This document shows, piece after piece, positions 15,565 through 61,290 of a DNA stretch of 64,000 nt. Source of the stretch: Cristatella mucedo (lineage: Eukaryota > Bryozoa > Phylactolaemata > Cristatellidae). Position 1 is the first letter of the stretch; each line of letters starts with the position of its first letter. The stretch spans positions 6,645,001-6,709,000 of the forward strand of contig WPIO01000002.1 in the NCBI GenBank assembly GCA_009760855.2. Reading direction: 5' to 3'. The notes under the pieces were generated by a model. It made no database searches. It was given only the letters and a program-made list of their open reading frames with translations, and had not been told where the DNA came from. Both the position numbers and the translations under genes were made by a program.

Positions 15565-15740
15565 TCACAGAACGGTTCTCACGGTCCCACGAATGCTGAC
15601 ACGACAGATCGGGCACGTGGTCAGTGCAGGTGCGCAAACGGCACAGCAGACGCAGTGACCGCACGGCAGGAACACTATGCCCACGAGAGAGTCCATGCAG
15701 ACCTTGCATGTCAACTGGACTTTAAACTGCAGGTTCTCCT
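15565..15740 (-). CDS. IAP gene 1, exon 8: RING finger and stop
   Basis: The acceptor TTTGTTTTAG is directly before the exon. It supplies two bases of a split Glu codon. The RING has the full IAP spacing CX2CX11CXHX3CX2CX6CX2C, with Cys585, Cys588, Cys600, His602, Cys606, Cys609, Cys616 and Cys619 of the joined protein, so all eight zinc ligands are present. It ends ..RGTVRTVL, then TGA at 15565-15567. The hydrophobic C-terminus right after the RING is usual in IAPs and serves dimerisation. Same length (176 nt) and phase as the gene 2 RING exon. Confidence 0.93.
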
Positions 15741-59200: not shown

Positions 59201-61290
59201 CATTGATTTTTGACAGGACTGCTTAAAAAAAGTCCAGACTGATTGTTTCTGGTAGTATTCTTCTGACCCCTTATTTGTGTATCGGAGGTATTTTGGGTGA
59301 TAGCAGTCGGTTGCACCAAATGACCTTTTTCCGTCCCCACAATACTTGAAGACTAATCAGTAGTCTCTCTGTCTTGCACTTAATCGGCAACTGTTTTATG
59401 GAACATTGCAAGAAAGTATTACGTGAAGTAATACATGTGGGTTCTCAATCCTTCTTAATATTATGAACTCTAAAGGAGTAGTAGAAATAGCTCATGCTAA
59501 AACTCGATGGGCCATTTGACTTGCACATTGCTCTGTTGTCATTGGGTCCTGAGCGTGTATCTAAGGTTAAGCCATTGGGCCAGACTTGACCTAGATCAAG
59601 ACAGCCAATCATAGGATGATTGGGGGACGAGTCAGGTTGATTGCCATTTACCGCGCGATATCGGGCGACCGATTCATAAGCCTTTTTAAAGGGACCAAGG
59701 CCAGTCGATCCATCTTAAGTAGGCTTACGAACTAATCACAACTCCCAAGCCAATTAGCACCATGCCAATTCCCAGACTGCGGCTGACCTTCCACACATTA
59801 CAGAAGATATGAAAGGCAGAGACAGGCTTTGACAGTTTGCAATAAATTGCCAAAGCTTTCACATAAAAACGCAAAAATTCGCATACAGGCTTTGATGCAC
59901 CAGTCTTTTCACGTTTGCAGTGTTTCTCATGATCCGATTGTGAACAGACACAGGCGCCACAAAAAACTGACTAGCTAAATTTATGCTTGCCATTTATTCC
60001 ATAGCTGCATCGATTTTGATTTGGTTAGCAGCTTGTTTTTTGGCAAACCAAAGCTTCAGAGAGCATAGTAACACTATGAAAAACGTTAAACAATAAACAG
60101 TGAGAATGCCCCATGTGCTCTTGCTCTTCAAGATAAACACTCCCATATTAAAGCGACCATGTCATATTTATCGCTCGGAGTAGAAAAAGGATCGGCCCAG
60201 CACCAAGCGTCATTGGTTCAGGCGATTTCCTTCCATTTACGGGCTACGGTATGACCAGTGGTGGTCTCTTCAGGTTCTGTTTTATTGTGAGGGCCCCTGT
60301 GGTCGCCTTCTCAGCATCAATTTATTCGAAGCTTATTTAGGCATTCCCTTTCTGGCCGCTATTTTAAAGCTACAGATCGTTCATCGAAGATGCTGAGTAT
60401 TCTTTTGAGAAGAATGGCACAATATTCTGTCGTGCACATTAAAGCCATGAGTAGAACATGTCTGTATACACCTACTGATGTTACTCCAATCTAGAGCTCT
60501 TTTTTACCATTCCCTATTGTAGCATGCGCAACTCACGACATCAAGATCAAATCATCTATTAAGAAATAGAACCATTGCGTCTAATCCTACTATTATGTTT
60601 ACTAATCTCGAACGACAGGCATAGCTTAATCTATTGCGAGTCATTTTCCGAAGACTAATCGCTAAAACCAATGTCGAACCAGTAATACCCCTGCCTCAGC
60701 TGCCGAAAAATAAATCGCAGCAAAGTCAAATATACCTTTAACATGCCATTGTATGCAGAGCTAAAATACAGATTGAATATAAATAAAAGGCAGCTTTATT
60801 CCGCAAGTAGAGGTTTCTCACTTAGACTGTTCATCTGCCCCCAGGAGAGTTAAGGTTACTATGGCTACAGGAGTGTTGAGAGCTGTGAATCGGTTGCTCA
60901 TATTGCGGTGCCATTGGAAGTCAGAACTAAACCTGGGCAAATTCATAGTCAGTAATATTAGTGTGTGCTTCACAGCAATGAAGCGTAGCTCAAAAAAATC
61001 TAGGGAAATACCGATTGACATTATCTTTAAAATATACTTCCTGGTCAAAAGGCTGTATGATGGCATGCAAAGACATATGTATCAGCTGACAATAGGAGAC
61101 ACTCTACTTTGTTCATCCAGCGTCTTTGGATCCAGTTCGGTGAACGGTATGGGGACGTTGCCCACGTCGTGACCTTGAACGAATCTGCAGTAGGTGAAGT
61201 GCAGGGCATGTTGCTCTGCAGCTCGGTCGCCATGCTCCCAGTTACGTAACAGACCTTGACAGAAGGCGCATTGCACCCGGTCACCTGGGC
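47122..61290 (-). CDS. IAP gene 2: BIR2 (part), BIR3, UBA and RING; 5' end outside window
   Basis: Paralogue of gene 1 in the same orientation, about 16 kb away. Coding exons found, 5' to 3': 61290-61108, 58975-58832, 57165-57014, 56350-56092, 54835-54608 and 47297-47122. Phases match gene 1 exon for exon, and BIR3-half and RING exon lengths are identical (144, 152 and 176 nt). The sum is 1142 nt, giving 379 residues plus stop. The exons for BIR1 and the first half of BIR2 must lie beyond 64000. Predicted role as for gene 1: RING E3 ligase with BIR-mediated protein binding. Third codon positions are more AT-rich than in gene 1. No stop or frameshift, so probably functional. Confidence 0.87.
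49055..49190 (-). mobile_element. tRNA-derived SINE, diverged
   Basis: Tail AAATAAATAAATAG, then TTTAACAGCCCG, TATATAGCGACAG and TAACGGCTATCACCAC in reverse; the tRNA head is degraded. Confidence 0.7.
49247..49275. repeat. (GA)n microsatellite
   Basis: Short GA repeat with one GACA interruption. Confidence 0.9.
50380..51995 (+). mobile_element. LINE-B, long degraded copy
   Basis: Pre-RT region around 50640 ([17 protein letters not shown]), RT box [16 protein letters not shown] (51181-51228), DDTQLYFSF (about 51294-51320), post-RT coding to about 51700, 3' UTR and a degraded ACATTAC tail near 51990. 49690-49800 reads like the end of a LINE endonuclease ([12 protein letters not shown]), so the copy may start earlier. 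A ~60-bp duplication (TAAATTAGCTACTCCATTCC) sits at 51607-51685. Confidence 0.75.
52802..53878 (+). mobile_element. L2-like LINE, 5'-truncated, well preserved
   Basis: Starts in the RT thumb region, continues through the post-RT domain, 3' UTR and tail. Highly similar to 9500-10336. The right stem arm GGGCGCTTTATTAAG is kept; the left arm has decayed (TAAGGCTCTTAG). Confidence 0.92.
52888..53643 (+). pseudogene. L2-like RT C-terminal fragment
   Basis: 251-codon frame from [24 protein letters not shown] sequence to the natural ORF end ([12 protein letters not shown]). It lacks the catalytic RT motifs, which would lie upstream. This is a truncation product, not a gene. Confidence 0.9.
54608..54835 (-). 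CDS. IAP gene 2, UBA-RING linker exon
   Basis: Acceptor CATCTGCCGTAG, donor CTGCAG|GTCAGT. Phase 1 to 1, 228 nt, 76 codons, open. Ser-rich ([10 protein letters not shown]) and predicted disordered. Position and phase match gene 1 exon 7; the sequence does not. Supported by splice sites, phase and parallel placement only. Confidence 0.6.
56092..56350 (-). CDS. IAP gene 2, UBA exon
   Basis: Acceptor ATATGTTTCTAG, donor ACGACAG|GTAGCC. UBA core [19 protein letters not shown]. Starts in phase 0 and ends with one extra base, as in gene 1. 259 nt, against 274 in gene 1; the difference is in the tail after DEKQR. Confidence 0.88.
57014..57165 (-). CDS. IAP gene 2, C-terminal half of BIR3
   Basis: Acceptor AAATTATCTAG, donor CACAGC|GTAAGT. 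Zinc ligands CX2C, H and C (HX6C) are all present. Gly and Arg stand at the positions equal to Glu314 and Trp323 of human XIAP BIR3. 152 nt. Confidence 0.92.
57800..58125 (+). mobile_element. LINE-B, old 3' fragment
   Basis: GACAATAATTTGGCTGTG, TTCTTGCATAACGACG and CTGACTCTAATACTTTC match LINE-B post-RT and 3' UTR at low identity. Tail not visible. Confidence 0.45.
58255..58510. repeat. (AT)n microsatellite, long
   Basis: Nearly pure AT from about 58341 to 58502, with one GTGTGTGTGTGTAC interruption at 58380-58394, flanked by ATGTACTAT units. Confidence 0.97.
58575..58640 (-). mobile_element. Possible L2 tail fragment
   Basis: GTGATCCATCGGAGGATTAAATCCCTTGTAAGCACTTTACATATGC resembles the reverse stem-loop and tail at low identity. 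Confidence 0.35.
58650..58710. repeat. (AT)n/(GTATAT)n microsatellite
   Basis: AT repeat changing into TATGTATA units. Confidence 0.93.
58832..58975 (-). CDS. IAP gene 2, N-terminal half of BIR3
   Basis: Acceptor AGACGTTGCAG (nearly the same 10 bases as gene 1), donor [22 protein letters not shown] and [11 protein letters not shown]. 144 nt, phase 1 to 1. Confidence 0.92.
58976..61107 (-). other. IAP gene 2, intron between BIR2 and BIR3
   Basis: 2.1 kb of intron. No repeat family or gene recognised. Confidence 0.65.
61108..61290 (-). CDS. IAP gene 2, C-terminal half of BIR2
   Basis: Acceptor TCTCTGTTTCAG. Zinc ligands Cys-X2-Cys, His and Cys are present, and [12 protein letters not shown] is shared with gene 1. 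The donor is read as AACAAA|GTAGAG, which is in phase (183 nt) but weaker than the others; the frame continues open to a TGA at 61082-61084. The first half of BIR2 is not in the window. Confidence 0.82.

Follow-up and report, generated by a model that had tools for sequence, protein, structure and literature searches.

We analysed a 64,000-nucleotide stretch of the genome of the bryozoan Cristatella mucedo (the window; C222:6645001-6709000 of the 572 Mb assembly), which holds a complete gene of the inhibitor of apoptosis (IAP) family (gene 1) and five exons of another (gene 2). Both are RING-type IAPs with three BIRs, a UBA and a RING, with no CARD found, and they stand in tandem array. Our results make it highly probable that the window carries the two lowest-coordinate units of an old head-to-tail IAP array, which have since diverged, which encode putative E3 ligases and in which some exons were later homogenised.

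Hidden Markov models (HMMs) of the exons, built from the window genes and run over C222:6635001-6899000, revealed a minus-strand, head-to-tail array of four complete genes and a two-exon remnant, about 208 kb in all, with the window genes as units 1 and 2. The four complete genes span about 170 kb and each has all seven coding pieces in the same order, genes 3 and 4 lying at C222:6740939-6765840 and C222:6803639-6829971, both on the minus strand. The remnant fifth unit (C222:6868053-6868786, minus strand) holds only BIR1 and the first half of BIR2, and the exon HMMs detected no more IAP exons in the next 38 kb. A previous interpretation, made from the letters of the window alone (the sequence-only reading), had left open whether the two genes belong to a larger cluster; the array scan shows that they do. 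It had also proposed a search to the right of position 64000 for the missing part of gene 2 and for further copies, and both are there: at window-equivalent positions, gene 2 has its BIR1 at 64939-65196 and the first half of its BIR2 at 64440-64562, both beyond the right-hand end of the window at a distance of 0.4-1.2 kb. Pfam and exon-HMM scans found neither of these two pieces within 61291-64000.

In both spliced models the BIR and RING domains exceed the Pfam cut-offs. Pfam recognises three BIR stretches in gene 1 (E 4.5e-54) and two in the visible part of gene 2 (E 8e-28), and even as unspliced exon open reading frames (ORFs) 7 of the 8 BIR pieces and both RINGs pass. The C-C-H-C zinc-ligand pattern of the BIR, which characterises the IAP family, is present in both genes, and so is the C-terminal C3HC4 RING of the RING-type IAPs, scored by zf-C3HC4_3 at 42.0 and 44.6 bits against a cut-off of 27. 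The order BIR1-BIR2-BIR3-UBA-RING is found in the model of gene 1, and in gene 2 once the flanking 1.2 kb is added. On this order the genes had been called XIAP-like, a label that suits their architecture but not their RING, which is nearer to cIAP1 and cIAP2 (70-71 bits, against 48 for XIAP); the scores against PDB chains are 71.3 bits for BIRC3, 70.0 for BIRC2, 62.8 for BIRC7 and 48.4 for XIAP. The best PDB match of gene 1 is the cIAP1 chain 3t6p (E 1e-48), which aligns in two blocks, BIR3 with UBA and the RING on its own; this ranking is favoured by the length of the chain, XIAP figuring among the listed matches as fragments only. The BIRs differ by only a few bits (BIR3: BIRC3 83.1, XIAP 78.9; BIR2: BIRC2 65.6, XIAP 62.6). 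Hence it is the RING that carries the nearness to cIAPs over XIAP, since BIR scores are near-equal and XIAP is represented by fragments. No CARD or death domain was detected in the three minus-strand frames of the UBA-RING introns (7-9 kb) of both genes with Pfam at E up to 1, a search whose sensitivity to a CARD exon that is split or diverged was not controlled.

Relationship of the two genes within the array

A genome-wide BIR search gave at least 54 exon-level matches, with loci on C331, C365, C122, C6, C442, C49, C145 and C687 among them, and three genes of the same type were retrieved outside the array: gA, on the plus strand at a distance of 5 Mb, and gB and gC, both on C67. Viral contigs were searched for a relative and none was found.

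The exon models come from motif searches, ORFs and inspection of exon borders, with AG/GT borders and phases matched between both genes. This mapping bears out the description of two minus-strand IAP genes with a common exon order, common phases and exons of 144, 152 and 176 nt, together with the outer coordinates that had been given for them, 15565 (the RING stop of gene 1) and 61290 (the first base of the BIR2 second-half exon of gene 2); fourteen exons had been listed, and we count 12 in the window (7 in gene 1 and 5 in gene 2). The equal lengths had been taken as proof that one gene arose by local duplication of the other, and this is not supported, for they are largely a family-wide trait. 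Each of the 7 related genes compared has the 152-nt exon in phase, and the 176-nt RING exon is present in all 5 whose RING was compared, genes 1-4 and gA. With preferred acceptors, the 144-nt exon has this length in genes 1-3, while it measures 141 nt in gene 4 and gA, 156 in gB and 165 in gC. Alternative in-phase acceptors exist for this exon in genes 2-4, gB and gC, and the match at 144 nt between genes 1 and 2 hinges on the acceptor chosen in gene 2. In their last four exons the related genes share phases and lengths, and in hard clam too BIR, UBA and RING have been described with conserved exon structures (PMC7831173). Since the exon lengths are mostly a family trait, they are no proof that genes 1 and 2 duplicated from each other. 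This corrects a tempting inference: equal exon lengths mark a shared exon module, and not the duplication of a given pair.

We built protein and DNA trees from 321 codons in six exons of 7 genes (1-4, gA, gB and gC), leaving out the RING because the sequences of gB and gC came without it, and the remnant because it has only two exons. Genes 3 and 4 are sisters (bootstrap 94-100%), with gene 2 as their next relative (82-90%) and gene 1 outside this group. It is therefore improbable that genes 1 and 2 form a self-contained tandem pair born from one local duplication, as the sequence-only reading had it. They are indeed adjacent, on the same strand and built of matching exons, and over the five exons shared in the window 207 of 303 aligned residues are identical (68%), with the exon pairs (n=5) aligning at E 2e-19 to 2e-35. 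However, further units adjoin them, and in the tree data gene 2 is closer to genes 3 and 4 (72% and 69% identity) than to gene 1 (67%), which itself shows 68% identity to gene 3 and 66% to two copies on another contig. Constraining genes 1 and 2 as sisters gave approximately unbiased (AU) test p values of 0.07 for protein and 0.0317 for DNA; such a sisterhood is disfavoured, not firmly excluded. Between the introns of the two genes in the window, the only common sequence consists of dispersed repeats.

That both copies are under selection had been proposed with a dN/dS check, and in this comparison protein change proved to be well under silent change, with pN at 0.207 and pS at 0.678 over the 303 codons of the five window exons. 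This low ratio argues against neutral decay, but the date of the split cannot be derived from it. Long introns with many fragments of long interspersed nuclear elements (LINEs), and the presence of a remnant fifth unit in the array, could suggest that either copy is decaying into a pseudogene. We regard this as very improbable, since both genes have open exons with splice sites, their BIR and RING carry zinc-ligand motifs and pN is far under pS. The higher third-position GC reported for gene 1 was found again (0.671, against 0.513 in gene 2), and it tracks local base composition, the GC of the surrounding DNA being 0.496 around gene 1 and 0.422 around gene 2.

Several points weigh against the reading of the window as the end of an old array of functional IAP genes. 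Support for the four array genes as one group is only 60-74%, which leaves room for a separate history of gene 1. With silent sites close to saturation, dN/dS between genes 1 and 2 can be estimated only roughly (about 0.14 over 303 codons, bootstrap upper limit 0.21; in segments taken from all seven exons, dN is 0.25 and dS 2.14). Genes 3 and 4 are described as sets of individually recognised exons and not as full spliced models. The Pfam UBA_BIRC2-3 scores, 20.0 bits for gene 1 and 12.2 for gene 2, are both under the cut-off of 27.2. Finally, the gene models, their 5' ends included, and the functions proposed for them are predictions from DNA.

Exon models and the remainder of the window

Gene 1 has 7 coding exons on the minus strand, which splice into an open frame of 528 amino acids in the order given above. 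Exon 1 (30977..31339; Pfam BIR E 3e-15) contains the start codon at 31298 and the whole BIR1, its 5' acceptor being predicted. Exon 2 (30480..30785; partial Pfam BIR, E 7e-6) holds the first half of BIR2, with a clear 3' border at 30480 and a predicted 5' acceptor picked among several in-phase AGs. The second half of BIR2, with its zinc ligands, lies in exon 3 (28757..28969; Pfam BIR E 8e-11), and BIR3 is divided between exon 4 (26343..26486, 144 nt; partial Pfam BIR, E 6e-5) and exon 5 (25384..25535, 152 nt; Pfam BIR E 1e-10). Exon 6 (22825..23098, 274 nt) aligns to the cIAP1 UBA, with a Pfam UBA_BIRC2-3 match below cut-off (E 7e-4), and exon 7 (15565..15740, 176 nt; zf-C3HC4_3 E 2e-12) encodes the RING and the stop. 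In the intron between these last two, a 17-nt unit rich in CA is repeated in a long tandem run (18016-18567).

The five exons of gene 2 in the window, also on the minus strand, begin with the second half of BIR2 (61108..61290, 183 nt; Pfam BIR E 1e-10). The first half of BIR3 (58832..58975, 144 nt) gives a partial Pfam BIR match below cut-off (E 8e-4) and aligns with gene 1 at E 2e-19; it has two acceptor AGs nine bases apart, and the alternative start at 58984 would make it 153 nt long. The second half follows at 57014..57165 (152 nt; Pfam BIR E 4e-11). The UBA exon (56092..56350, 259 nt) was aligned to that of gene 1, and a two-row profile of both was in turn aligned to the cIAP1 UBA. The RING and stop are found at 47122..47297 (176 nt; zf-C3HC4_3 E 1e-12). 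We considered whether a further exon links BIR2 to BIR3 and found it unneeded, a direct phase-1 splice working in both window genes; phase-1 donors after BIR2 were also read by eye in genes 3 and 4, gA and gB.

Barring cross-matches of BIR exons, the exon HMMs found no further IAP pieces in the window past the two genes at E below 1e-3. Among 28 non-IAP ORFs, Pfam gave only matches of reverse-transcriptase type and one sub-threshold AID match. No RNA family reached its gathering score in the window, and no tRNA was found (bacterial settings). Direct repeats at 333-626 and 4358-4652, 99% identical, flank a plus-strand ORF (1749-3713) that matches DUF7047 over the cut-off and RVT_3 at the cut-off, with RVT_1, integrase zinc-binding and RNase H matches below; the whole looks like a young long terminal repeat retrotransposon. 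Fragments of non-LTR, LINE-like elements lie at about 9111-10340, 16396-16836, 19124-21548, 29195-29797, 37728-38178, 41654-42281, 43173-44998, 52774-53875 and 62074-63996; several are within IAP introns and some copies are over 90% alike.

Exon-wise homogenisation, the UBA motif and the BIR3 groove

Homogenisation was assessed by counting identical codons among those for shared amino acids, with Met and Trp left out. The C67 pair, gB and gC, agrees at 46 of 46 such codons within the first 49 of the BIR2 second-half exon, and at 65 of 70 in the UBA. Elsewhere in this pair silent divergence is 0.74 for BIR1, 0.48 for the first half of BIR2, and 0.73 and 0.69 for the two halves of BIR3. In the array, genes 2 and 4 share 38 of 46 codons in the BIR2 second-half exon, compared with 101 of 222 elsewhere (P 2.4e-6). 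Six of 136 one-sided tests fall under the Bonferroni limit of 3.7e-4, and this same exon accounts for five. For genes 1 and 2 the excess is mild and not under that limit (29/42, P 0.004), other tests of the exon giving P 0.011 and run tests P 0.04 and 0.006. Towards the end of this exon, 28821-28870 and 61142-61191 are identical at 48 of 50 bases, though silent sites elsewhere are near saturation.

The reading that we prefer, and hold to be somewhat more probable than its competitors together, is gene conversion between exon islands lying amid unrelated, repeat-filled introns. Silent sites in the BIR2 exon could instead be kept alike by constraint on DNA or RNA, for example by a splicing element, and this alternative, though less probable, has to be taken seriously: two of the pairs under the Bonferroni limit, gA-gB (P 1.3e-4) and gA-gC (P 3.5e-4), lie on different contigs, which suggests that some constraint acts on the BIR2 exon too, and this exon yields 12 of the 14 lowest P values listed. 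Yet constraint accounts poorly for the UBA, which is homogenised in the C67 pair although gB and gC show silent divergence of 0.63-0.85 from the UBA of the other genes. Nor does it readily explain that the DNA of genes 2 and 4 continues to match beyond the BIR2 exon, over 53 nt of the upstream intron; for genes 1-2 and 2-3 the match continues for only 11-12 nt, and the C67 UBA match is confined to the exon. As for precedent, the titles and abstract openings of the matches listed by a full-text literature search do not report gene conversion in IAP arrays.

The UBA had been described as conserved, which is true of its outline but not of its MGF motif, which is lost. A two-row profile of the UBA of genes 1 and 2 matches only the cIAP1 chain 3t6p at E up to 1, and does so collinearly at E 3e-4. 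Modelled by AlphaFold from two sequences, the exon is helical, with a predicted local distance difference test (pLDDT) of 66.6 and a predicted template modelling score (pTM) of 0.49, a modest confidence that lends weak support. As judged from these comparisons, the predicted UBA is real but diverged in both genes. Where MGF would be expected, 8 of 8 close copies, the two of the window included, read MDY (Met-Asp-Tyr), amid an otherwise conserved stretch. Alanine at Met382, Gly383 or Phe384 of XIAP strongly reduces ubiquitin binding (PMC3240630), and cIAP1 uses its MGF motif in TRAF2 binding (PMC5823975). With MDY in place of MGF, ubiquitin binding is probably weak, or another partner is bound; we infer that ubiquitin binding by this UBA is altered or lost.

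The UBA query gave 14 matches, eight of them close (75-100% identity), corresponding to the seven genes and one copy on C145, and six others at 35-45% identity on C681 and C343. A lone UBA-like stretch beside simple repeats (C681:1157849-1158007), with VGY at the motif, looks like a relic. Five diverged matches (35-37% identity) within about 50 kb at C343:938669-987893 are perhaps another expanded family, and in the one examined the motif is neither MDY nor VGY.

In cIAP1 BIR3, the Trp of AKWFP has a role in the peptide groove. At this position the BIR3 second-half exon encodes Arg in 7 of 7 aligned copies, those of the window (25384-25535 and 57014-57165) and of five further genes, which may have changed the choice of BIR3 partners.

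The UBA motif and the exon-wise homogenisation raise a more tentative reading, to which we give slightly less than an even chance: an IAP subfamily in which MDY was fixed before the copies multiplied and whose copies are mosaic, the zinc half of BIR2 and sometimes the UBA being repeatedly converted while their neighbours diverge freely. If true, such mosaic evolution would let partner-binding parts vary around a shared BIR2 core.

Proposed function and comparison with known systems

From the domains, exon structure, array and sequence conservation described above, a biochemical role may be proposed. The proteins would act as E3 ubiquitin ligases, with BIR2 and BIR3 binding caspases or signalling partners and the C-terminal RING, which ends in GTVR plus hydrophobic residues as in cIAP1, recruiting an E2 and ubiquitylating the bound partners, so that cell death would be limited or immune signalling tuned. 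The UBA, its standard ubiquitin-contact loop lost through the change from MGF to MDY, would probably bind ubiquitin weakly or take a different ligand. The copies would derive from an old tandem duplication followed by divergence to near saturation at silent sites, some exons being later homogenised, probably by gene conversion.

The main finding is an ordinary one and its novelty is low, because mollusc IAP arrays are well described (PMC7831173 and PMC8917759). It adds one more tandem expansion of IAPs, with the MDY UBA and the exon homogenisation as side observations of note that offer a handle on which IAP modules stay common and which are free to diverge.

Human XIAP (BIRC4) shares with the window genes the order BIR1-BIR2-BIR3-UBA-RING without CARD, but the Cristatella RING is less similar to that of XIAP than to those of BIRC2/3, and the MGF of XIAP is absent here. 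cIAP1 and cIAP2 (BIRC2 and BIRC3) provide the best whole-protein PDB match and the closest RING, and differ by their CARD, which was not found in the UBA-RING intron of either window gene. In domain make-up the window genes also resemble Drosophila DIAP2, which has three BIRs, a UBA and a RING and is not known to have a CARD. The oyster BIRC2/3-like IAPs are likewise expanded and tandem-arrayed, and some have UBA and RING; according to PMC8917759, they have two BIRs and a death domain replacing the CARD, in contrast to the three BIRs and no death domain found here. The tandem arrays and conserved exon modules of IAPs in the hard clam Mercenaria mercenaria are a further likeness (PMC7831173). 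According to that paper, an example array has 6 genes in about 90 kb within a family of 159, compared with 4 complete genes in about 170 kb here; in XIAP and the cIAPs one exon holds BIR1, BIR2 and half of BIR3; and the hard clam IAPs differ from gene 1, whose BIR1 lies in one unsplit exon.

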